Shown piece by piece: positions 7,840-37,157 of a stretch of DNA of 37,157 bases. Every line of letters begins with the position of its first letter. Position 1 is the stretch's first letter. Made by a program: the position numbers and the translations under genes. The stretch covers positions 1-37,157 of the forward strand of contig CAMVMM010000021.1 of NCBI GenBank assembly GCA_947168565.1, in the 5' to 3' direction. The DNA is from an uncultured Clostridia bacterium. Lineage in GTDB: Bacteria; Bacillota; Clostridia; Christensenellales; CAG-138. The notes below the pieces were generated by a model that worked only from the letters and a program-made list of their open reading frames with translations, made no database searches and was not told the DNA's origin.

Positions 7840-9231
7840 TTACAGGATTACGCCCTCAAGATCGTATTCCCGCGCGGCGGTCAGCCTTGCCGTAACGTAA
7901 TCGCCGGGCCGGGGCATATTTGCCGCGTTTTCGCCGCGAAGCAGCAGCATGCCGTCCACCTCCGCCGCCTCCGCGTAGGAGCGGGCAAGCGCCGTGAAGC
8001 CGCCGCGCCCATCGAGCGAAACGGATTCTATAAGCGCCTCGGTCTCGCTGCCGAGCCTGCCCATGTTCAGCCTGTGGGAGATCTCCCGCTGCATGCTCAT
8101 CAGCTCGTTGAGCCTTATTTGGGCCACCTCGTGCGGCACCTGATCCGGCATCTCGGCGGCGGGGGTGCCGTCCTCCGCGGAATAGGTGAAGCCGCCCACG
8201 CGGTCGAAGGGATGCTCTGTCAAAAAGCGCATAAGCTCCTCGTGATCCGCCTCCGTTTCGCCGGGAAAGCCCGTCATAACGGTGGTGCGCAGAATAAAAT
8301 CGGGCGAGGCTGCAAGTATGTAGTCGGTTATCTCGCGTATATGCCTGCCGCTGCCGTGGCGGTTCATGGCGCGAAGCATCCTTTCGCTTATATGCTGAAT
8401 GGGCATATCTATATAGGCGCAAAGCTTTTTCTCCCGCGCGATCGTGTCCACAAGGGCGCGGTCAACCGTATTCGGATAGGCGTAAAGCACCCTTATCCAA
8501 TGCAGCTTGTCTATAAGGCAAAGCGCCTCAAGCAGCTCCCGCAGCATGGGTCTGCCGTAAAGCTCCGTGCCGTAGGCGCTGGTGTCCTGCGCTATCACGG
8601 TAAGCTCCGTTACGCCCGCATCGGCAAGCGCGGAGGCCTCCTCAAGCAGCTTTTCCATTGGAAAGCTGCGCCTGCCGCCGCGAATGAGCGGAATGGCGCA
8701 GTAGGTGCAGCGGTTGTCGCACCCGTCCGCGATCCGAAGGTATGCGCGGTAGGGGGGAGTGGTGAGAAGCCTCGATGCGCCGCCGCAGAGTATGGCGCGG
8801 GGCTTGGCGCCGCCGGTTTTCCCCTCGGCCGCTTTGCTCTCGCCGTTTTTCTCCTCGCTTCCGTCCTCGCCGCCGAGCATGGAAAAAAGCTTTTTGGCAA
8901 GCGCGGGGTAGTCCTTCACGCCCCAAAAAAGGTCCACCTCCGGAAGCTCCGCGCGAAGCTCCTCGGGGTAACGCTGCGAAAGGCAGCCCGTAACTATAAG
9001 CAGCCTGCACGCGCCCGTTTTTTTGTATTGCGCCATCTCCAAAATGGCGTCCAGCGAATCCTGCTTCGCGCTCTCTATAAAGCCGCAGGTATTCACTATT
9101 ATAATTTCCGCTTCGTCCGCGCCTGCGCCAACCGTGAAGCCGAGGCGCGAAAGCTCGCCGAGCATGATCTCCGTGTCCACAGCGTTCTTGCTGCAGCCGA
9201 GGGATACCGCCCCCACCCTGGTGTATTTCAT
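7840..9231 (-). CDS. rimO: Ribosomal protein S12 methylthiotransferase RimO
   Basis: 463 residues. This radical-SAM enzyme methylthiolates the conserved Asp of ribosomal protein S12. The N-terminal UPF0004 domain has three cluster cysteines (SLGCSKN, NTCGFIE, VTGCLSQ). The radical SAM domain has the C-x3-C-x2-C motif in CDNRCTYC near residues 165-172. A C-terminal TRAM domain ends the protein. The motifs around SLGCSKNAVDTE indicate RimO rather than MiaB or MtaB. An acidic, Lys/Gly-rich insert of about 25 residues sits before the SAM domain and may be a loop. The start is 9231, with AAAGGAG before it; the longer frame to 9423 runs into ftsK. Confidence 0.95.
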   Translation of the reverse strand: MKYTRVGAVSLGCSKNAVDTEIMLGELSRLGFTVGAGADEAEIIIVNTCGFIESAKQDSLDAILEMAQYKKTGACRLLIVTGCLSQRYPEELRAELPEVDLFWGVKDYPALAKKLFSMLGGEDGSEEKNGESKAAEGKTGGAKPRAILCGGASRLLTTPPYRAYLRIADGCDNRCTYCAIPLIRGGRRSFPMEKLLEEASALADAGVTELTVIAQDTSAYGTELYGRPMLRELLEALCLIDKLHWIRVLYAYPNTVDRALVDTIAREKKLCAYIDMPIQHISERMLRAMNRHGSGRHIREITDYILAASPDFILRTTVMTGFPGETEADHEELMRFLTEHPFDRVGGFTYSAEDGTPAAEMPDQVPHEVAQIRLNELMSMQREISHRLNMGRLGSETEALIESVSLDGRGGFTALARSYAEAAEVDGMLLLRGENAANMPRPGDYVTARLTAAREYDLEGVIL

Positions 9232-9310: not shown

Positions 9311-12300
9311 TCAGTAATCGCCGTTTCCGCCGTCCTCGCCGTCGTCGTCGTATGCGCCGCCTGCGGACTGATTGCCCGAGGAGATATTGCTGCCGAAGAT
9401 GTCGTAGTATCCCGCAGCGTCAAGCAGCACCTTGCGGGGCTTGGAGCCGTCCGCCTCGGACACGTAGCCCTTCTGCTCCATTATGTCCACAAGCCTTGCC
9501 GCGCGCGCATAGCCCACGCGCAGGCGCCGCTGGATCATGGATATGCTTGCCGCGCCGCTCTCTATCACAAGGCGCACCGCGTCCGGCAGAAGCTCGTCCT
9601 CCTGCTTGCCGTTGCCCTGACCGGGAGAAGCCGCGCCGGAGCTGATCTCCGCGAGCATATCGGTTTTAAAAACGGGCTGCTGCGAGGTGGTTTTGGTGAA
9701 GAATTCCGCTATCGCCTCCACCTCCTCGTCGCCCACGTACGCGCCCTGAGCGCGGGTGGGCTTGCTTGCGCCGTTCGGGTGGAAAAGCATATCGCCCCGC
9801 CCAAGCAGCTTGTCCGCGCCGCTTGAATCCAGTATAACGCGCGAATCCGTGGCGTTTGAAACCGCAAAGGCGATCCTTGAGGGGATGTTTGCCTTTATAA
9901 GGCCGGTTATAACGTCCACGCTCGGGCGCTGCGTTGCCACTATCAGATGGATGCCGCAGGCACGGCCGAGCTGCGCAATGCGGCAGATGGATTCCTCAAC
10001 GTCCTTACTTGCCACTATCATAAGGTCGGCAAGCTCGTCTATTATTATCACAAGGCGGGGCCAGCGCTCGTTTTCATCCTTCTGCACGGCGTTGTAGCGG
10101 TCTATATCCCTTGCGTGAACCTCCGCCATGCGCTTGTAGCGCTGATCCATCTCGTTCACCGCCCATTTTAGCGCGCCGGCCGCCTTCTTGGGCTCCGTCA
10201 CCACGGGGCAGAAGAGGTGGGGCAGGGTTTGGAATATGGAAAGCTCCACCACCTTGGGGTCGATCAGGATCATGCGCACGTCCTTCGGGGAGGATTTATA
10301 CACAAGGCTCAGAATTATGCCGTTTATGCAAACCGATTTGCCGGAGCCCGTTTGACCCGCCACGAGCATGTGCGGCATCTTGCCAAGATCCGCGTAAACC
10401 GCGTTGCCCGCAATATCCTTGCCCACGGCGAAGGTGAGCGGGGATTTGGCGGCGGCAAACTCGCCCGTGTCTATAAGCTCGCGCAGCAGCACGGGTATGG
10501 TGCTGTGGTTCGGTATCTCTATGCCGATGGCGGATTTGCCGGGGATGGGCGCCTCTATGCGCACCCTCGGGGCGGCAAGCGCCAGCGCGATGTCGCTTGA
10601 AAGGGCGGTTATCTTGTTTACGCGCACGCCCTGCGCGGGCTGAAGCTCAAACCTTGTGATGACCGGGCCTATGCTTATATTCACTATCTTCGCCTCTATA
10701 TGGAAGCTTTTCAGCGTTTCTATAAGCACCCGCGCCTTCTCCTCCGGCGGCTCGGCGGCAATCGCAACGGTGGGATCGGGCAGCTTCAAAAGCTCTATCG
10801 GCGGGCGCTGGTAGATATAAACCTCCTCCGCACCGCCCTCGGCTTCCGCGTCGGTTTTTTCGCCGCTTTCGCCGCTCTCGCCGCTCTCGCCGCCTGCGCG
10901 GCCTTCACGGCTTTTTTGGCCGTCCTCGCCCTCTGCGTATTCATCGCCGTAATGCACATCGGAAGCGGGCCCGCGCCCGCGCCCGTTCTCCGTTTCGGGC
11001 GGGGTGATCCCGCCGTCCCCGTCAAGGCTCGAATTGTAACAGCCGTCAGCGCCGCCCCCGGCCCCTGCGCCGTTCATGCCGCCGTAGGGTCTGCCGGAGC
11101 GCGGATCGTAAACCGAAATATGCGCGGAGGCAAGCGGATCGTCCGCATCGCCCGCGCCGTCTGCGCCGCCTGCGCCGCCCGTGCCGCCGAAGGCGGGCCT
11201 GTCGCCGTATTCAAGCTCCACGTCGGCATACACGCCGTCCCCCTGAAAGAAGGGATCGCCCTCGAACATTTCGCCGCTGTAATCAAGCTGCGTTTTCATT
11301 TCGTCGCGCTTTTTCTTTTTAAAGGAATGCTTTTTGACCTCAAGCGGGCCGGAGCTGGGGTAGAATTCCAGCTCATCCCCCTTCTTTTTTGCGCCTCGGG
11401 AGAATATGGAGCCGCCGAAGGCCGAGCCGCCGGACGCGCGGGAAGCGCGGGAAGCGCGGGAAGCGCCGGAAGCGCCGGATGCGCGGGAAGCGCCGGAAGC
11501 GCCGGATGCGCCGTCCGAAGCGGAGCCCGATAATTCAAAGGGATAGGCAGGGCCGGGTGAGCCGCGCCTGCGCGAGCCGTTCGCGCCGCTTTTTGCGGAG
11601 GGATCGCCGCGCCTTGCGGTTCGTGCGGGCGGGTCGTAGGAATAGTCGCTGTCGCCGGAGGTGAGGGGGGTGCCGGAATGCTCTATAAAGCCGCCGTTGT
11701 CGCCCGTGGGAAGCTCCTCCATGAAAAGCCCGCCGCCCCTGCGGCCGGTGCCGGCATTCGCGCCCGCGCTTCTGCGCTGCATGCTGCGCTGCCTGCTGCG
11801 TTCGCGGAGCATTTCAATGCGCGCCTTTATGGAAACGTGGGTGAGCAGCAGTATAGCTATCACGATAATGCCGAAAAGCGCGATCGCGCTGCCGGTAACG
11901 CCAAGAAGCAGCACGAATAAATAGGCCAGTATGCCGCCGAAAACGCCGCCGCCTATGCGCGCCTTGCCGAGATTGTATGCGCTTGATACGATCTCTCCGA
12001 AGCGCGCGCCGACCATCTGCCTGCCCTGCGCAAAAATATGTATAAGCGCTATAACGGAAAGCACGATTACGGCTATGCAGGCTATGGAAACGGGGCGCAG
12101 GTCGCGCCGGGGCAGGGCTATCAGCAGCACGCCCAGCGCAATAAGTATGGGCGGCAGCGTGTAAACCGAAACGCCGAAAAGCCCGAATAGAAAAGTTGCC
12201 ACGCCCGCAAAAAGGCCGCTTGAGCCGAAATAGCAGAATATGCCCAGTATAAGCCCTATAACTATGAGCACCACGCCGCTTATATCGCGGCGCACCTCGT

Positions 12301-12502
12301 CCGGCGCGCGCCGATCTTCCCTTGCGGGAGAGTAGGATGAAACGCTTCTTGATGCGGAAGCGGAGCGGGTGGTGAGCGCCCCGGAGGATGAGCGCAAAGC
12401 GGAGGCTCCCGAAGCGCCCCGCTTATTATCCGCAGCGGCGGAGCGGGTCGAGGCCGCGCGCGAGCTGCCGTTATTTTTATTGTCTGTTTTTTTGTTTGCC
12501 AT
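9311..12502 (-). CDS. ftsK: FtsK/SpoIIIE-family DNA translocase
   Basis: 1063 residues, longer than SpoIIIE (about 790) because of an expanded linker. The N-terminus is low-complexity and basic, followed by about four membrane helices (about 70-230). A disordered linker of roughly 350 residues follows, with a run of 3-residue SGA/SRA repeats and Gly/Asp/Glu-rich stretches. The motor domain has Walker A GQTGSGKS (about 715-722) and Walker B VIIIDELADLM (about 820), and the C-terminal gamma winged helix reads KOPS-type sites. It pumps chromosomal DNA through the closing septum during division or sporulation. AAAGGAG lies before the start. It is the first gene of the ftsK-recA block. Confidence 0.95.
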   Translation of the reverse strand: MANKKTDNKNNGSSRAASTRSAAADNKRGASGASALRSSSGALTTRSASASRSVSSYSPAREDRRAPDEVRRDISGVVLIVIGLILGIFCYFGSSGLFAGVATFLFGLFGVSVYTLPPILIALGVLLIALPRRDLRPVSIACIAVIVLSVIALIHIFAQGRQMVGARFGEIVSSAYNLGKARIGGGVFGGILAYLFVLLLGVTGSAIALFGIIVIAILLLTHVSIKARIEMLRERSRQRSMQRRSAGANAGTGRRGGGLFMEELPTGDNGGFIEHSGTPLTSGDSDYSYDPPARTARRGDPSAKSGANGSRRRGSPGPAYPFELSGSASDGASGASGASRASGASGASRASRASRASGGSAFGGSIFSRGAKKKGDELEFYPSSGPLEVKKHSFKKKKRDEMKTQLDYSGEMFEGDPFFQGDGVYADVELEYGDRPAFGGTGGAGGADGAGDADDPLASAHISVYDPRSGRPYGGMNGAGAGGGADGCYNSSLDGDGGITPPETENGRGRGPASDVHYGDEYAEGEDGQKSREGRAGGESGESGESGEKTDAEAEGGAEEVYIYQRPPIELLKLPDPTVAIAAEPPEEKARVLIETLKSFHIEAKIVNISIGPVITRFELQPAQGVRVNKITALSSDIALALAAPRVRIEAPIPGKSAIGIEIPNHSTIPVLLRELIDTGEFAAAKSPLTFAVGKDIAGNAVYADLGKMPHMLVAGQTGSGKSVCINGIILSLVYKSSPKDVRMILIDPKVVELSIFQTLPHLFCPVVTEPKKAAGALKWAVNEMDQRYKRMAEVHARDIDRYNAVQKDENERWPRLVIIIDELADLMIVASKDVEESICRIAQLGRACGIHLIVATQRPSVDVITGLIKANIPSRIAFAVSNATDSRVILDSSGADKLLGRGDMLFHPNGASKPTRAQGAYVGDEEVEAIAEFFTKTTSQQPVFKTDMLAEISSGAASPGQGNGKQEDELLPDAVRLVIESGAASISMIQRRLRVGYARAARLVDIMEQKGYVSEADGSKPRKVLLDAAGYYDIFGSNISSGNQSAGGAYDDDGEDGGNGDY
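11438..11520 (-). repeat. 9-bp tandem repeat inside the ftsK linker
   Basis: About nine copies of a GGAAGCGCG/GGAAGCGCC-like 9-mer (plus-strand reading) encode Ser-Gly/Arg-Ala-Ser triplets. The array is in frame, so copy-number change would lengthen or shorten the linker without a frameshift. Confidence 0.75.
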
Positions 12503-12674: not shown

Positions 12675-12865
12675 GAGCTTGACCGCCGCATACTGCAAAA
12701 AGCCGCGAAGGGAATAGTTTTTCAGTCGGTTTTTTCATGTTGACCATGCGAAAAGGCCGATCGGTGAAAATGGGTGGAGCGGAGCGCGGAGCGCGGAGAG
12801 AGAAAGGTGTAGGGCGAAAAGTGTAGAGAGAGCGCGGAGAGAGAACGGCGGAGCGAAAAAACGGA
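12675..12865. other. Purine-rich tract downstream of the RNA gene
   Basis: Positions 12765-12865 on the plus strand are almost pure purine, with irregular GCGGAG and GAGAGA repeats; the minus strand is pyrimidine-rich. I see no gene or promoter. It lies between two terminators. Confidence 0.5.
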
Positions 12866-12900
12866 GAGAAAAGAGCGGCGGCCCATGGGGGACGCCGCTC
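12866..12900 (-). terminator. Terminator of the structured RNA
   Basis: Perfect 8-bp stem GAGCGGCG/CGCCGCTC (12873-12880 with 12893-12900), 12-nt loop, then TTTTCTCTCC on the minus strand. Confidence 0.85.
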
Positions 12901-13232
12901 GGCGGGGGACGGGCCGGTTCACCCGTCGCCCCTCATTGGCACAGATCTCGCGAGGCGATAATGATCTGAACACGGCAGGAACAAGACTGCCGAATGCGCG
13001 TGCGATCGATTAAAACCGAAAAAAATCGGGAGGTTCAATTCTGGAGGTAGATCGCACAAAACCGGACGCAAATTATATCGACCCGCTCCGAAGCCATAAG
13101 AGGCGCCGTGCCGGGTTAGATATTGGGATGCGAAATGCCGCCGTATAAGCGGCGAAAGGCTGAGGTGCGGCGAAAGCCATGCGCTGTACACAGCCGCCGA
13201 CAAAAGCCCATTTGATCACATGCCATTACTAC
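12866..13232 (-). ncRNA. Candidate structured non-coding RNA next to hpf
   Basis: A gene-free stretch bounded by a strong minus-strand promoter (13239-13267) and an intrinsic terminator, giving a transcript of about 367 nt. The minus-strand RNA can form, from 5' to 3': a GCUG/CAGC hairpin, GCCGC/GCGGC, a long ACCCG/CGGGU-closed stem, a 7-bp UGCGAUC/GAUCGCA-closed stem (12 internal loop residues pair as CCGA/UCGG), CGGCAG/CUGCCG, CAGAUC/GAUCUG, a GACGGG/CCCGUC hairpin flanked by GGGG/CCCC, and the terminator. I searched by eye for signatures of tmRNA, RNase P RNA, SRP RNA and T-boxes and found none. The position beside hpf recalls the raiA-motif RNAs of Bacillota, but I cannot confirm that family; 6S RNA is another possibility. 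A 94-codon frame across it lacks a ribosome site. Confidence 0.7.
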
Positions 13233-13238
13233 GACACA

Positions 13239-13267
13239 ATTTTAGCAAATACATTTTGGGCTGTCAA
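13239..13267 (-). promoter_or_regulatory. Promoter of the structured RNA
   Basis: TTGACA (13262-13267) and TAAAAT (13239-13244) with a 17-nt spacer. Its start point near 13232 is followed by no ribosome-binding site or ORF, which supports a non-coding product. Confidence 0.88.
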
Positions 13268-13471
13268 CAGCTTTTTGCACGGCGAAAAAATATATATTTA
13301 CCAAATGAAATACCCGAATCATACATAATCATTATCAAAAACGCGCCCATCGCCGCTTTTTTCTTATTTATTATTTGCCGAAGCCCCGCGTCCGCCCGCT
13401 TCGATGAAATATGTCAAAATTACGAACAAGATGATATGCCCGACCGCAGGCGGCGCATGGGCAGAATAAAG

Positions 13472-13501
13472 GCGTGTGCGCGGAAGCCGCCGCGCACACG
13501 C
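13472..13501 (-). terminator. Probable terminator downstream of hpf
   Basis: Perfect 11-bp stem GCGTGTGCGCG/CGCGCACACGC with an 8-nt loop, about 60 nt past the hpf stop. The following minus-strand sequence CCTTTATTC is a weak U-run, so efficiency is uncertain. Confidence 0.6.
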
Positions 13502-13559
13502 AAAATCAAATGCTTTTATAAAAATTCAAATCACGCGCCCTTGCGCACGGGAAAGGGGC

Positions 13560-14081
13560 TTATCTGTCCGGCTCGATAAGGCCGTAGTTGCCGTCCTTCC
13601 TGGAGTAAAGCACGTTTATATCGCCGGTTTCGCCGTTTGTGAACACGAAGAAGCTGTGCCCAAGCAGATCCATCTGAAGCATCGCCTCGTCCACGCTCAT
13701 GGGCTTCATCGAGAAGCGCTTCACCTTCACTATCTCGGGGCCGTGCTCGTATTCGTCCTCGTATTCGTCCTTCTCCGGAGCTTCCTCGTAGCGCAGGGTC
13801 TTGCTCAGCTTGGTCTTGTGCTTTAAGATCTGGCGGTCGAGCTTGGCTATAACGTTGTCGATGCTGGCATACATATCGGTGGTGGTCTCCTCGCCGCGGA
13901 TAACGCCGCCGCGATAGGGGATGGTTATCTCGATGCTGTGCCTGCTCTTTTCAACGCTCATCATAACCTGCACCTCGGTGTCCTGCGGGAAATACTTATC
14001 CAGCTTTTCAAGCTTTTTAAGCGTCAGCTCCTTGAGGTAATCGGTAACCTCCATGTTTCTTCCGGTGATAGTTACTATCAT
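13560..14081 (-). CDS. hpf: Ribosome hibernation promoting factor, long form
   Basis: 173 residues, the length of long HPF. The N-terminal S30AE/RaiA domain (about 1-100) begins IVTITGRNMEVTDYLKE and contains the YFPQDTEVQV region. An acidic linker follows (about 105-118), then the C-terminal dimerisation domain (about 120-173) with the signature KRFSMKPMSVDEA and GHSFFVFTN. Long HPF pairs two 70S ribosomes into inactive 100S dimers in stationary phase or sporulation. GGGAG lies before the start, and a TGTACA/TATAAT promoter is upstream. It has its own terminator, so it appears to be transcribed alone, with the RNA locus next. Confidence 0.96.
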   Translation of the reverse strand: MIVTITGRNMEVTDYLKELTLKKLEKLDKYFPQDTEVQVMMSVEKSRHSIEITIPYRGGVIRGEETTTDMYASIDNVIAKLDRQILKHKTKLSKTLRYEEAPEKDEYEDEYEHGPEIVKVKRFSMKPMSVDEAMLQMDLLGHSFFVFTNGETGDINVLYSRKDGNYGLIEPDR

Positions 14082-14578: not shown

Positions 14579-17500
14579 ATGAACTCTAAGCAACTGTTCA
14601 CCAAGACGCTCGCGGGCCTTCTTGCGCTCGTGATGCTCTTCGGCGTGCTCGTTCACGTTGGCGGCGCGGGCGTTTCCGCAGAGGGCGCTGCTGCCGTTAA
14701 GGCGGCGGAGGGCGCGGTCACGCTCGACAAGACCGCCCATCTCACTGCGGACGGCACCTACAGCATAGATCTTGAGGCGCACACGGCGGATGAAAACGTC
14801 ACCACCATTGTGACGCACTCAACGGAGCCCATCGACTACGTGCTTCTTATCGACCAGTCCGGCTCCATGCGCGACGTGGAGAATATTCCCCAGGCTCCCG
14901 ATCCGGCGCTCATCTGGCACGGTCAGCGCGGCTTCGGCCCCATGTCCATCGAAACGCGCCACCTTACCGCCATCAAAACCGCTGTGAACGAGTTTATCGA
15001 CCTGGTGCACAGCAAGGCGACTGCGGAGGTCAATCACAGGATCGCGGTGGTCGGCTTCGCCGGCGGGTACAACACTCAGTCGCAGGATCATAACTACACC
15101 AACACCGAGGTTTTCGTGGGAGCTGCGCAGTACGGCTACAACGGCTACGACGGCGACCTGATGCCCGGGCAGACCAATATCGGCCAGGATTGGGCGCAGA
15201 ATCATTACGGCGACGTTTTTCAGGACGTTACCGTTCCCGCTCAGCTTGCTAATCTCAAGGCCTCCAAGGATGCGTTCGACGCACAGGGCGGCACGGCGCT
15301 GCATCTCGGCATGGAGATGGTAGAGGGCGTTATCCGCGCCAGAAATGAAGACCCCGATTACTACGGCAGAAAAACCGTCGTTATCGTGTTTACGGACGGC
15401 GTCACCGGCTCCCTCGGTCAGAACCGCAGGTGGGCAAACGAGGCTGTCGCAACCGCCAACAACGTTAAAAACGCTCTTAACTCCGAGATCTACTGCGTCA
15501 GCCTTATAAGCCACGTTCGCAACTTCGAGTATGAAAAGCGCTACAAGGGCTGGCTCGGCAACCGCAAGCTGCCCGCCTGGATCGAGGAGGACTGGCCCAC
15601 CTTTTACGACAACAATCAGAGCTGGTTCAACAACGCGGCCGACCAGATACTTTGGACCGATTCCTACAGGCTCGTGGCGGCTATCTCCAGCAACTACCCC
15701 AACGCGCAGTACGGCGTGATGAATAAATTCAATCAGAACAGCAACGGCTATCTGACCTACCTCGGAGCAAAGAACCCCAACCTGCCGAACGCGATCAACG
15801 GCTCCAATCAGGGCATGATCGACCTTCGCGCCTACGACGGCTACTGCTTCGAGCTGCATGACGCGGCGGACGTTCAGGGCAGATCCCCCGTTCGCAACGT
15901 GCAGGGACTCATGACCGCCTATCTCGCCATAGAGAATATCACGGACACCGTGATCGAGGAAACCGTGGGCGGCGGCGGCGAAAGCATCTCGCTCACCGGC
16001 GACGCCATTATGCGCGATATGCTCTCCGAATACTTCTTTATGCCCGAGGCGTTCAGCGTGGATAACGTGATCGTCCGCACTCAGGTTCCCACCGGCGGCA
16101 GCCTTGAAAGCGGCTTCACCTTCGCCGGCGCGCAGGATGAAACCTATGCCCGCAGCGGCAATGCCGATGCAAACGGCTGGTATTCCTTCGTTAAAAACGG
16201 CAGCGGCGTTGACGGCATCAAGGTTCGCATCAACAAGGGCGAGGGTCTTGTTGAAGTCAAGGGCTTCAACTATAAGGAGCAGTATTGCCGCAGGAATGCC
16301 GACAACTCCTACGGCGGCAGAAAGCTGCTTGTGACCATCACCGGCATCGAGGCAAACGACTGGGCGGTGGGCGATCAGCTCCCCACCAACCTTGAGGCGC
16401 ACTCCGGCGTTACCCCCGGCGAGGGCCAGCTCCCGCCCGAGGATATGCGCTTCCCGCTTCCCACGGTGAATATCCGCGAAAAGTATTTCGTTTACGATTT
16501 CTGCCGCGATTTCTACGAGGAGAATCCCGATCACTTCTTCGGAAAGAACGGGCACGACGTTAAGGCCGTGCTTGCGCTGGACGCTCCCTATAAGCAGCAG
16601 AACGTGAACGCCTACTCCGAAGAATACAGCACGAGCGATGAGGACGGCGTTCTGTTCACCGCCGCTGCGCAGGATCACCAGGCTGCGGACAACGGCGTGG
16701 TGTTCTCCATCAAGCAGATCAGCCACAGCGACTTCGTGGTCGGCGCGCTGCTTCAGCTTGACGACGATACCTACGAATGGTGCAAGCTCACCTTCCTGCC
16801 CGCCACCAACGTTCACTACGAGGAGAATAACCTCAGATACAACAAGGCCTCCACCAGGGACGATGCGAACGCACCCAAATTCGTTGAGCTTGAACAGAGC
16901 GAATGGCGGCTTGCGGGCGCCGGCAAAGAAACCGCAAGGCAGGGCATAGATAATATCGTCTATGGCTATGAGGCTGAATACAACGTTGAAACCCATGGCG
17001 ACAGCAACGCGGCAACCGCCCATATCGTTGTTGACCAGGCGTATCTGGACGCCGTAATGAGCAAAACCGCTCAGTGGCCCGTGGCGCATTTCCGCTTCAC
17101 CGGCACCGGCTTCGATATCCTCTCCCGCAGCGGCGCGGATACCGGCGTGCTTGCGGTGGACGTTGTGCCCCACGGCCTGCCCCGCAATTATGCGGATGGC
17201 ACCGCCGGAGCGAACTATGCGCATCTCATAGTGGATACCTATTACGGCGATGCGGAGAATCAGTACGAAAAGACCCTGCACCAGATCCCCGTGCTCCGCG
17301 TGACCGGACTGCTGTTCGATCCCCAGGGCTACGACGTATATATTTCGCCCGTTTACCACAAGGTGTTCGATCACACGCCCAAAACCAAGGACGGCAAGTC
17401 GGCCTACGACCCCGCCGCGATCGAGGGCGTTAAGATTCCCGGCCTGCCGGAGGTGGATTATCAGCTTGTGAATGCTTCCGATTACAGCGCCGAAAGCAGC

Positions 17501-19480
17501 GTCAGCTCCACGCGCAATGATGCGCCCGTATACGGCACCTTCAACGTGTATCTGGACAGCATCCGCGTGTATGAGCCCCGCACCGGAGAGGGCATCACCG
17601 CTATTGACAGGCGCGCCTACGAGGAAGCGGGAGAGCTTGCGCCCCAGTACCGCCAGATCCGCGACATTCTGCTTGATCCCGAGCAGTACGTTCCCATGAC
17701 CGACAATGAGGGCAACACCGTTTACGACAGCGAGGGCAAGCCCGTGTACGCCATCAACGGCATCATCTATATCGACGCCTTCGATGGCTACGACCCCACG
17801 AGGCCCGTTAAGGTGGAGAACTACGAAACCTTCGGCCCGAACAACGAAACCTACCTCATGCCCACCCATATACACGGTGATGGCGATATCCCCGAAACCC
17901 AGCAGGCGTTTGCGTTCACCCTTAAGGAGTGGAACAACACTACCTCAAGGCTGCACATCAGCGCGAAGGCTCCCTACGGCAAGGTGCATCTGCACGTAAA
18001 CGGCAGGCACGTTGCGGTGGTTCAGTCCTCCACCGAGATGTATTACGACGTTACCGACGTTATCCGTGAAACGAACGGCGTGATCTACGGCACCGGAAAC
18101 CCCTCGCCGAACGGACACGTCATCATCTCCGCCTATATCGATGCAAGCGAAGCCGGTGCGGTGGACGATCATCGCGTGCTCTCGCTCGTGAACGTCAAGT
18201 TCATCGAGAATGCGGAAAACATCGTGCACACAACGCGCGATATCGAGTTCAGGGACGACGCGGGCAGCCTTATCAAGAGGATCGAGGACTTCACCGTCGG
18301 CAACAGGCTGCAGGAGAGCGATTTCCCCACCGAGGCGCAGCTCGCAAGGCCCGGCAAGGTATACAGCCACGACTACAACGGCGGCATAATCCCCTCCTCC
18401 CATAACAACACGCCCTACATAGTTACCTATTACTATGAGGATGAGCAGCCCGTTCAGCAGACCTGCACCGTGCAGTTTGTGCCCAAAGAAGGCGCTGCGC
18501 CCGTTGCAGCCGTAGTTGTGAACAGGGGAACCATTCTCCATAACGGGATCACGCTCCCCAATGGCAGCACCTTCACCTGGCCCACCGTGCCCGCGCCCGA
18601 TCACGGCTGGGAGATCGGCAGCAGCGCCGCCGGCGGCTGGCTGTATACCTTCGGCGAGATAACCGAGGATACGACCATCTATGCGGCGTATACTAAGATC
18701 AATATGGCAACGATCTATTTCAGCTTCGGCAACTTGGATGCGCAGTTCAAAAATGGCGGTCAGCTGCTTTTGAGCACAGATACGACGTTCAACACGATAC
18801 CGCAGGCTCCGAACAACGGCAACTTCAGTTATAGTTCTGCTCATTATGTGTCTAATACAACGACTCTTGTGAGCTCCATACCCTCAAATGCCGTCAATGA
18901 TCTGAGCGCAACGGTGACCGATACGAGCAAGGTATACAGGATCGAGGTTGAGCCCGGCGATTACCGCGTTGGTATCTACTTCAAGAATATCCGTAACGGA
19001 ACGAACTGGTGGTTCAATCCAAGCGGCGGCGCAGACAATATCAGGCTTGCCCCCGGTCAGGTCAAGTATTACAGGGTAGAGGGTAAAGCGGTAACTGTTT
19101 ATAACAGCTACAACGGCCCCTCCACCGATCAGCACAATATCATGCCCATGCGCGGCGATGCCGCAGCACCCGCCACAAGCGGAACCGTCAGAACGCAGGC
19201 GCTGCGCGGCGCGGGCTCGTTCAACGATGGCGAGCTTACCTACATCACCTCCAATGCCGACACGCTTCTGTTTGCGGAAGCGGTGCTTGCGGGCGTTGAC
19301 GGCGACGCGAACCATGACCGCGTTGCGGACCTCATGGACGCGCTGCTGATCATGCGCTGCTCGCTCGGGCAGGACACCGGTCTTGATATCTACGGAAGAT
19401 ATTGTGCCGATTATAACCGCGACGGCGAAATCGACGTCACCGATGCCTTGTTTGTAATGAGAGCATCCCTTGCCAATTGA
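14579..19480 (+). CDS. Large secreted vWA-domain protein with C-terminal dockerin
   Basis: 1633 residues. Signal peptide about 1-35. A von Willebrand A domain (about 85-440) has an intact MIDAS: DQSGS at 92-96, Thr in GGTAL near 239, and FTDG at 271-274. Long beta-rich, unassigned regions follow (about 450-1215). A MucBP-like segment (about 1220-1285) and an InlB B-repeat-like unit (about 1295-1375, ending in TIYAAYTK) come next, then a distinct segment (1375-1560). The C-terminal 64 residues are a type I dockerin with two calcium loops, DGDANHDRVAD and DYNRDGEIDV. I see no LPxTG motif; attachment would be through a cohesin. The role is probably adhesion or surface assembly, which is inference. 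The start follows CGGAGG. The 77-residue peptide gene follows after 19 nt. Confidence 0.88.
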   Translation: MNSKQLFTKTLAGLLALVMLFGVLVHVGGAGVSAEGAAAVKAAEGAVTLDKTAHLTADGTYSIDLEAHTADENVTTIVTHSTEPIDYVLLIDQSGSMRDVENIPQAPDPALIWHGQRGFGPMSIETRHLTAIKTAVNEFIDLVHSKATAEVNHRIAVVGFAGGYNTQSQDHNYTNTEVFVGAAQYGYNGYDGDLMPGQTNIGQDWAQNHYGDVFQDVTVPAQLANLKASKDAFDAQGGTALHLGMEMVEGVIRARNEDPDYYGRKTVVIVFTDGVTGSLGQNRRWANEAVATANNVKNALNSEIYCVSLISHVRNFEYEKRYKGWLGNRKLPAWIEEDWPTFYDNNQSWFNNAADQILWTDSYRLVAAISSNYPNAQYGVMNKFNQNSNGYLTYLGAKNPNLPNAINGSNQGMIDLRAYDGYCFELHDAADVQGRSPVRNVQGLMTAYLAIENITDTVIEETVGGGGESISLTGDAIMRDMLSEYFFMPEAFSVDNVIVRTQVPTGGSLESGFTFAGAQDETYARSGNADANGWYSFVKNGSGVDGIKVRINKGEGLVEVKGFNYKEQYCRRNADNSYGGRKLLVTITGIEANDWAVGDQLPTNLEAHSGVTPGEGQLPPEDMRFPLPTVNIREKYFVYDFCRDFYEENPDHFFGKNGHDVKAVLALDAPYKQQNVNAYSEEYSTSDEDGVLFTAAAQDHQAADNGVVFSIKQISHSDFVVGALLQLDDDTYEWCKLTFLPATNVHYEENNLRYNKASTRDDANAPKFVELEQSEWRLAGAGKETARQGIDNIVYGYEAEYNVETHGDSNAATAHIVVDQAYLDAVMSKTAQWPVAHFRFTGTGFDILSRSGADTGVLAVDVVPHGLPRNYADGTAGANYAHLIVDTYYGDAENQYEKTLHQIPVLRVTGLLFDPQGYDVYISPVYHKVFDHTPKTKDGKSAYDPAAIEGVKIPGLPEVDYQLVNASDYSAESSVSSTRNDAPVYGTFNVYLDSIRVYEPRTGEGITAIDRRAYEEAGELAPQYRQIRDILLDPEQYVPMTDNEGNTVYDSEGKPVYAINGIIYIDAFDGYDPTRPVKVENYETFGPNNETYLMPTHIHGDGDIPETQQAFAFTLKEWNNTTSRLHISAKAPYGKVHLHVNGRHVAVVQSSTEMYYDVTDVIRETNGVIYGTGNPSPNGHVIISAYIDASEAGAVDDHRVLSLVNVKFIENAENIVHTTRDIEFRDDAGSLIKRIEDFTVGNRLQESDFPTEAQLARPGKVYSHDYNGGIIPSSHNNTPYIVTYYYEDEQPVQQTCTVQFVPKEGAAPVAAVVVNRGTILHNGITLPNGSTFTWPTVPAPDHGWEIGSSAAGGWLYTFGEITEDTTIYAAYTKINMATIYFSFGNLDAQFKNGGQLLLSTDTTFNTIPQAPNNGNFSYSSAHYVSNTTTLVSSIPSNAVNDLSATVTDTSKVYRIEVEPGDYRVGIYFKNIRNGTNWWFNPSGGADNIRLAPGQVKYYRVEGKAVTVYNSYNGPSTDQHNIMPMRGDAAAPATSGTVRTQALRGAGSFNDGELTYITSNADTLLFAEAVLAGVDGDANHDRVADLMDALLIMRCSLGQDTGLDIYGRYCADYNRDGEIDVTDALFVMRASLAN

Positions 19481-26418: not shown

Positions 26419-26451
26419 AAAAAGCCTCCCGTTGATTATTTTCCATTCGGG

Positions 26452-26480
26452 ATTTTACTACCGGCAAACCGCTTTGTCAA
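26452..26480 (-). promoter_or_regulatory. Promoter of the GLUG/dockerin gene
   Basis: TTGACA (26475-26480) and TAAAAT (26452-26457), 17-nt spacer, leader of about 27 nt. Confidence 0.9.
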
Positions 26481-26530
26481 TCGAAAAATGATGAAAGATG
26501 AAAATGTCATATTTTGTTAATGCAAATGCC

Positions 26531-26561
26531 AAAAACGGCGCGGGCGAGGATGCCCGCGCCG
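26531..26561 (-). terminator. Terminator downstream of the tandem paralogue pair
   Basis: Perfect 10-bp stem CGGCGCGGGC/GCCCGCGCCG, 6-nt loop, then TTTTT on the minus strand. Confidence 0.95.
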
Positions 26562-26619
26562 CGGAAAAGTGAAAGCAAAGCGCTGCTTCGGAGCGCTTGT
26601 TATGCCCTCCCCTCCGAGC

Positions 26620-36844: not shown

Positions 36845-37157
36845 CGCAGGCGAGCGGGAGGTGCAGAGTGATGTGTGCTTTGCGCGTGATGCTTGCCTGC
36901 GGCGCGTTGTGCCTTGCGCCGAATGATGTGCGCTTCGCGCGTGATGCTTGCCTTGCGGCAAATGATGCTCGGCTTCGCCGAATGATGCGCGCCTGCGGCG
37001 CGTTGTGCCTTGCGGCAAATGAAATCCGGCTTGCGCCGGGTGAAATCTTTTTTACAAAAAGATGAAATCCGCTTCGCGGGTGAAATCGGCAAAGCCGGTT
37101 GTGGTTGAAATTCCTGCGGCGCTTCCAAAAGCCTTCCCCTCCGAGGGGAAGGTGGCT
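36845..37157. repeat. Right-end hairpin array and terminal 60-bp block
   Basis: About eleven palindromic units of 16-22 nt follow the 730-residue gene: arms such as GCGC/GCGC, TGCC/GGCA, CGGC/GCCG and GCGCC/GGCGC around TTC, TGC or TTGC loops, separated by TGATG, TTGTG or TGAAAT. Arms differ between units but remain complementary. Positions 37098-37157 repeat the left-end block in inverted orientation (58 of 60 bases). The small ORF at 36841 is a by-product of the repeats. Confidence 0.88.

Follow-up and report, generated by a model that had tools for sequence, protein, structure and literature searches.

The window analysed here is a stretch of 37,157 nt from an uncultured Clostridia bacterium (CAG-138), whose genome is labelled G000 and whose copy of the candidate RNA is termed W; homologues in three other genomes of the genus are referred to as G007, G008 and G002. 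On the minus strand, the gap between hpf and ftsK/spoIIIE holds a promoter, about 367 nt without a credible open reading frame (ORF), and an intrinsic terminator. The features of this region, in the order in which the strand is read, are the following.

13560-14081, minus strand: hpf, long form (S30AE domain plus C-terminal domain; Pfam PF02482 and PF16321)
13472-13501, minus strand: terminator-like hairpin 3' of hpf and upstream of the RNA promoter (terminator scan)
13299-13315, minus strand: conserved upstream box GGRTATTTCAWWTRGTA, with exact matches at this locus only (six copies, in 4 of the 11 genus genomes)
13268-13299, minus strand: A/T tract resembling an UP element, alignable by eye in all six promoters
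13239-13267, minus strand: promoter TTGACA-17-TAAAAT with extended -10 (promoter scan; the 17-base spacing also occurs in six homologous promoters, by hand count)
12866-13232, minus strand: predicted non-coding RNA of about 367 nt, its start inferred from the promoter (sequence and folding)
13123-13232, minus strand: variable 5' part, without BLAST similarity to relatives
13076-13122, minus strand: stem A, which can pair in each of W, G007 and G002 despite sequence changes (arms chosen by hand)
13000-13057, minus strand: stem C (GCGATC/GATCGC), enclosing a conserved unpaired CCUCC (13043-13047) and hairpin D (alignment, folding and helix check)
12973-12992, minus strand: hairpin E, CGGCAG/CTGCCG (pairing test and hand helix check)
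12942-12968, minus strand: hairpin F, CAGATC/GATCTG, absent in G002 (alignment and hand helix check)
12904-12932, minus strand: helix H, with the invariant core ACGGGUGAACCGG (alignment, pairing test and hand helix check)
12869-12900, minus strand: intrinsic terminator (sequence reading and helix check)
9311-12502, minus strand: ftsK/spoIIIE DNA translocase (Pfam PF01580)

The promoter that an earlier sequence-only reading had proposed is present, with TTGACA at 13267-13262, a 17-base spacer, TAAAAT at 13244-13239 and a TG ahead of the -10 element, agreeing with the consensus at 11 of 12 positions. Such a match is weak when taken alone, because the 2.5 kb scanned contains 4 promoter-like sites against 2.3 (sd 1.6) in shuffled sequence, and its weight comes from its recurrence in homologues. 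All six promoters found in the four genomes carry TTGACA or TTGACT followed, after the hand-counted spacer, by TATAAT, TACAAT or TAAAAT, and their upstream sequence can be aligned by eye across the roughly 75 bases compared, including the A/T tract that we liken to a promoter UP element. Among the 39 sites listed for the upstream box, 33 carry one or two mismatches, and the 4 of these 33 that were inspected have no promoter of the RNA type behind them. The terminator lies on the same strand, as had also been read, and consists of a GAGCGGCG/CGCCGCTC hairpin (12900-12873) followed by TTTT. It is absent from the list of the terminator scan, presumably because its 12-base loop exceeds the scan's loop limit of 8; the last element of the RNA in G007, G008 and G002 is a terminator hairpin that carries 7-8 T. 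Given the terminator-like hairpin 3' of hpf (13501-13472), the RNA would form its own transcription unit.

Further elements surround this unit. A TATAAT-like stretch is seen by eye upstream of ftsK, and the terminator scan lists there a second terminator-like hairpin with a T run at 12674-12653 (minus strand), for which no promoter of the RNA type was seen and which is perhaps a relic of a second RNA copy like those in G007 and G008. Behind ftsK on the same strand lies rimO (7843-9228; TIGR01125, 428 bits), and on the plus strand 14579-19480 encodes a 1633-aa surface-type protein that by eye has a VWA-like domain and a dockerin-like end and that has no match in NCBIfam.

The minus strand offers a 94-aa TTG ORF (12919-13203) and an 83-aa GTG ORF (12722-12973), the latter extending past the terminator; the plus strand has an ORF of 119 aa (13220-13579) that runs across the promoter. 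When the relatives are aligned, indels disrupt reading frames, bearing out the earlier judgement that no credible ORF is present. The minimum free energy of the predicted RNA is -150.1 kcal/mol (z -4.14, equalled by 0 of 100 shuffles) and its centroid structure has eight hairpins, in line with the at least seven stems first counted. However, most of this single-sequence stability is the terminator's, since z drops to only -1.54 (40 shuffles) once the last 45 nt are removed. The opposite strand is about equally stable (z -4.65, 40 shuffles), as is the reverse complement of each RNA tested, and because thermodynamics does not discriminate between the strands the orientation is assigned from promoter and terminator. 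The stability of W alone therefore says little, and it is the comparative evidence that carries the claim.

BLAST searches of 101 genomes found homologues in G007 (E 4.7e-23), G008 (E 3.9e-23) and G002 (E 1.4e-4), which is three of the ten other members of the genus, all in the hpf-ftsK gap and on the same strand as in the window genome; a 28-base match in G049 (E 0.0026) was taken as chance. A covariance model of the 3' module, R1, was built from W and these three homologues, so its scores of 115 to 204 bits in those four genomes hold by construction. Over 103 genomes of the family (11 in the genus) R1 revealed no further convincing member, in a search that, as for all sets of more than 40 genomes, ran with stricter filters that lose weak matches. 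Seven other family genomes match at E 0.011-0.092, which we take to be chance, and a weak second match in the window itself (26426-26568, plus strand; 15.8 bits, E 0.01) is probably chance too. Scanning the genomes of named species with exact patterns, which miss diverged homologues, returned 10 contigs. Three are known relatives labelled Clostridiales or Clostridia, namely RUG13931 (a member, we presume, of a rumen genome series) and two bins, one from goat abomasum and one from sheep omasum. The other seven are unrelated: R1 gives at most 9.9 bits in short matches and nothing in four of them, neither hpf nor ftsK was found on them, and several look protein-coding by eye. Three exact patterns had no match in viral contigs.

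Within the genus, the next nearest genome by hpf identity (G003, 88%) has hpf and ftsK side by side with the RNA absent. In the other six, ftsK is not beside hpf within the stretch examined (the contig of one, G010, ends about 0.9 kb after hpf) and R1 finds nothing; in another, G004, a long gap holds what by eye are transposase remnants. With four genomes of the genus carrying the RNA, one keeping the gene pair without it and six in which ftsK was not found beside hpf, the RNA seems to have arisen, or to have been kept, in one sub-lineage. As it was found only in the hpf-ftsK gap of those four genomes, its place beside hpf looks to us like a lineage-specific site and not like a functional pairing.

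Conservation of structure is concentrated in the 3' module. When W, G007 and G002 are folded together, its consensus energy is -51.2, where column shuffles give -30.2 +/- 4.1 (z -5.18, 0 of 100), and with the terminator removed it is still -34.3 against -21.2 +/- 3.8 (z -3.44), again reached by none of 100 column shuffles. In a model-made alignment, which leans towards its own structure, 95.2% of 104 cells are paired, compared with 33-52% when the partners are slid. The covariation score is reached by 5 of 500 shuffles and three of five measures stand at that level, with the proviso that related sequences can beat shuffles without any structure; the two weak measures are pair changes on both sides (3 of 26, reached by 34 of 500) and further pair types (6, reached by 152 of 500). 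Ten helices were checked by hand in W, G007 and G002 (one is absent in G002), and every one pairs completely apart from stem C of G002 (6 of 7), with stem A, hairpin D, helix H and the terminator pairing through differing sequences. This check is not an independent test, because the arms were chosen by the analyst, and the positions do not confirm where the apical portion of stem A lies in W and G007. Invariant parts include GAUCNNCCUCCNGAA in stem C, GCCAAWGAGGG and the core of helix H. The 3' half thus appears to retain its helices through compensatory changes, across three effective lineages only, G007 and G008 being near-identical at the locus.

The relatives carry longer and more elaborate versions. 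With starts taken from the promoters, predicted lengths are 367 nt for W, 748 nt for G002, 592 and 596 nt for copies 1 and 2 of G007, and 592 nt for copy 2 of G008, G007 and G008 each having two diverged units in tandem. The tandem copies have in common the promoter region and a module, M2, with the loops GAUCGGUUGA and UGUUUUUCCUUCC, and otherwise differ. The W RNA has no exact M2 loop motif and shares only the 3' module with copy 1. A search for the M2 pattern over 396 genomes of the order returned G002 and one chance-looking match. The structure of M2 rests on single folds, as its consensus across the two kinds of copy (automatic alignment) is not significant (z -0.69, 23 of 100 shuffles as good); for the pair of the first kind alone z is -1.90 (3 of 100 as good). 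Copy 2 itself folds better than shuffles (z -5.1 in G007 and -5.6 in G008, 40 shuffles each), and the 5' parts of G007 and G002 align with each other in short pieces. In G008 the copy-1 promoter is followed, in place of the 5' half, by an ORF of 417 aa (474 aa from an upstream TTG; L037 5026-6276, minus strand), behind which the M2 and 3' modules run on almost as in G007. This ORF has a signal-peptide-like start and a CGPT motif, which we take as that of a papain- or C39-like cysteine peptidase; it has no match in Pfam, NCBIfam or PDB sequences and was found in 1 of the 11 genus genomes.

The candidate matches no Rfam family. As the sequence-only reading had proposed, the Rfam covariance models were searched, including raiA and 6S, and over the whole window the gathering thresholds admit a single match, a Gut-1 RNA (RF01706) at 37017-37091 (plus strand), which belongs to a tract of hairpins spaced by TGAAAT at the end of the window, with none at the RNA locus. 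Relaxing the search of the RNA region to E 5 yields only three matches, all far below their cut-offs; the best, Xoo2 (22.1 bits against a cut-off of 45, E 0.052), lies mainly over helix H and the terminator and was taken as chance. In the corresponding stretches of the three relatives only Gut-1 exceeds its cut-off, in addition to two sub-threshold L31 matches; G002 has another Gut-1 behind ftsK (L038 5318-5392). A tmRNA was rejected, ARAGORN having reported no tRNA or tmRNA in the window and Rfam no match. The raiA RNA (RF03072, ModT) is, like the candidate, an independent structured RNA of Clostridia, and raiA genes most commonly follow it (66%), according to the available text of PMC11706538. 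Unlike the candidate, it matches its own covariance model, for which membership requires more than 101.3 bits: a full-length raiA RNA of 198.9 bits lies on a contig of the window genome other than that of hpf (G000:C5:52730-52936, locus L090), and no match occurs at the locus. The model detects one raiA RNA in 10 of the 11 genus genomes, the exception being G008, which is 68% complete. This makes the raiA RNA a gene distinct from the candidate, and the link to it that had first been hinted at falls away. 6S RNA (RF00013) is likewise an independent structured bacterial RNA, but the candidate has no match to its model and is predicted to fold into several branches, not into a single long hairpin, and 6S was rejected. 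The candidate is also unlikely to be the genus's common 6S RNA, because RF00013 matches in 0 of 11 genus genomes (against 5 of 14 control genomes) while the candidate occurs in 4 of 11; a divergent 6S may await discovery in the genus. A search of the open-access literature turned up, in the text available, no paper describing an RNA located between hpf and ftsK. The candidate appears to be a family uncatalogued in Rfam, of which an earlier computational mention is possible, large catalogues of candidate RNAs having been published (e.g. PMC11109978, PMC8040213).

The clearest hint to function is the CCUCC of stem C, which is invariant in all four genomes. CCUCC is the complement of the Shine-Dalgarno sequence (GGAGG), and C-rich-loop small RNAs of Firmicutes lower translation by pairing with Shine-Dalgarno sites. 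In W, G007, G008 and G002 the stem C CCUCC is predicted to be 0.65-0.85 unpaired against RNA means of 0.38-0.41, giving the conserved, unpaired C-rich seed by which C-rich-loop antisense RNAs are recognised, on predicted openness. Pyrimidine 5-mers are generally open (means 0.57-0.62, and 0.61-0.62 in W, G007 copy 1 and G002); CCUCC in shuffles of these three RNAs is 0.49-0.62 unpaired, and the stem C site exceeds both. CCUCC elsewhere is not as exposed (0.29 in copy 1 of both G007 and G008, 0.52 in G007 copy 2). The number of CCUCC sites is not clearly above that in shuffles (P 0.046 to 0.416 across six RNAs). Duplexes were predicted with the starts of hpf and ftsK only, and their energies of -8.0 to -17.6 kcal/mol, having no shuffled control, have no bearing either way. 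In the mechanism that we propose, the RNA would be transcribed independently, strongly and perhaps conditionally, and would act in trans by base pairing, the unpaired CCUCC loop of stem C covering Shine-Dalgarno sites of target mRNAs and lowering their translation, while the variable 5' part would serve as an added domain particular to each lineage. The unpaired CU-rich loop able to cover Shine-Dalgarno sequences is a trait that the candidate would have in common with RNAs of the RsaA type. The candidate is longer than such C-rich small RNAs. For RsaA, a C-rich small RNA of Staphylococcus aureus, action at a Shine-Dalgarno site is described in the available text of PMC3961350. This precedent and the conserved open CCUCC are why a base-pairing regulator is put first and a scaffold-type RNA second, although the Shine-Dalgarno mechanism remains a tentative and rather doubtful proposal.

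The existence of the candidate RNA is well supported by sequence comparison, and that it is a real, functional structured RNA is very likely. The earlier idea of an unidentified structured RNA that has a promoter and a terminator of its own is supported by its conservation, by the compensatory changes and by the lack of an Rfam match, the raiA association being the part that did not stand. The stretch might instead be intergenic DNA that evolves fast, keeping promoter and terminator but making no functional RNA, or a promoter relic, as the dissimilarity of the W 5' part to relatives, the folding of W only slightly better than shuffles once its last 45 nt are removed and the failure to find the element in 7 of 11 genus genomes would allow; this is improbable in view of the compensatory changes in the 3' module. 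The position in the hpf-ftsK gap, on the same strand in 4 of 4 genomes, would suit an attenuator, leader or insulating region that acts in cis on ftsK or hpf, an even less probable reading, given that a terminator-like hairpin separates hpf from the RNA promoter, that the RNA has its own terminator and ftsK a TATAAT-like stretch before it, and that G003 keeps the gene pair without it. A small-protein gene, for which the 94-aa TTG ORF could be cited, is very improbable in the face of the frame-breaking indels. The ORF of G008, lying between promoter 1 and the M2 and 3' modules, raises the further idea of a structured 3' untranslated region of a gene for a secreted protein that was kept in G008 and lost elsewhere. 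The insertion of an ORF into an RNA gene would be the simpler reading, because the ORF occurs in one genome of 11 while W, G007 and G002 are ORF-less and the 5' parts of the latter two can be aligned, and the untranslated-region account is correspondingly improbable.

A scaffold RNA akin to the ornate large RNAs, with a conserved 3' domain, a swappable 5' domain and a function exerted through shape or assembly and not through base pairing, is unlikely, if less so than the foregoing alternatives. ROOL was named after its rumen origin. The resemblance to ROOL and GOLLD is one of large, modular RNAs, these two having separate 5' and 3' domains and variable linkers in the available text of PMC12286853. 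The relatives' RNAs of about 590-750 nt with separate modules, the tandem copies that keep promoter and M2 while the rest differs, and the stability of copy 2 all fit this account. However, the covariance models of ROOL, GOLLD and OLE have no match in the window or in the three relatives' stretches, the viral contigs are without the patterns, the candidate sits at a chromosomal hpf-ftsK site with no tRNA in the window, and the W copy is shorter, lacking the M2 loop motif. A bolder proposal would see here a new class of modular RNA gene, in which promoter, box and 3' fold form a fixed frame, 5' RNA domains or a protein gene are swapped in and tandem copies diverge, with a structural or ribosome-directed role rather than ordinary antisense; we consider it an outside chance. 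The reading that we prefer, still with less than even confidence, is of a structured RNA that is transcribed on its own and not translated, that belongs to a narrow new family found in one genus of rumen Clostridia, and that regulates in trans at Shine-Dalgarno sites.

An uncatalogued structured RNA family with so narrow a host range could reveal how RNAs of this kind originate, are duplicated and alter their 5' domains inside a single genus. The pair G007 and G008, near-identical at the locus save for a 5' domain that a protein gene has replaced, resembles a natural experiment in the evolution of modular RNAs. To our knowledge, the RNA biology of this gut-bacterial group has been little studied, and if the CCUCC loop acts on Shine-Dalgarno sites, the candidate would be a long regulatory RNA in that group.
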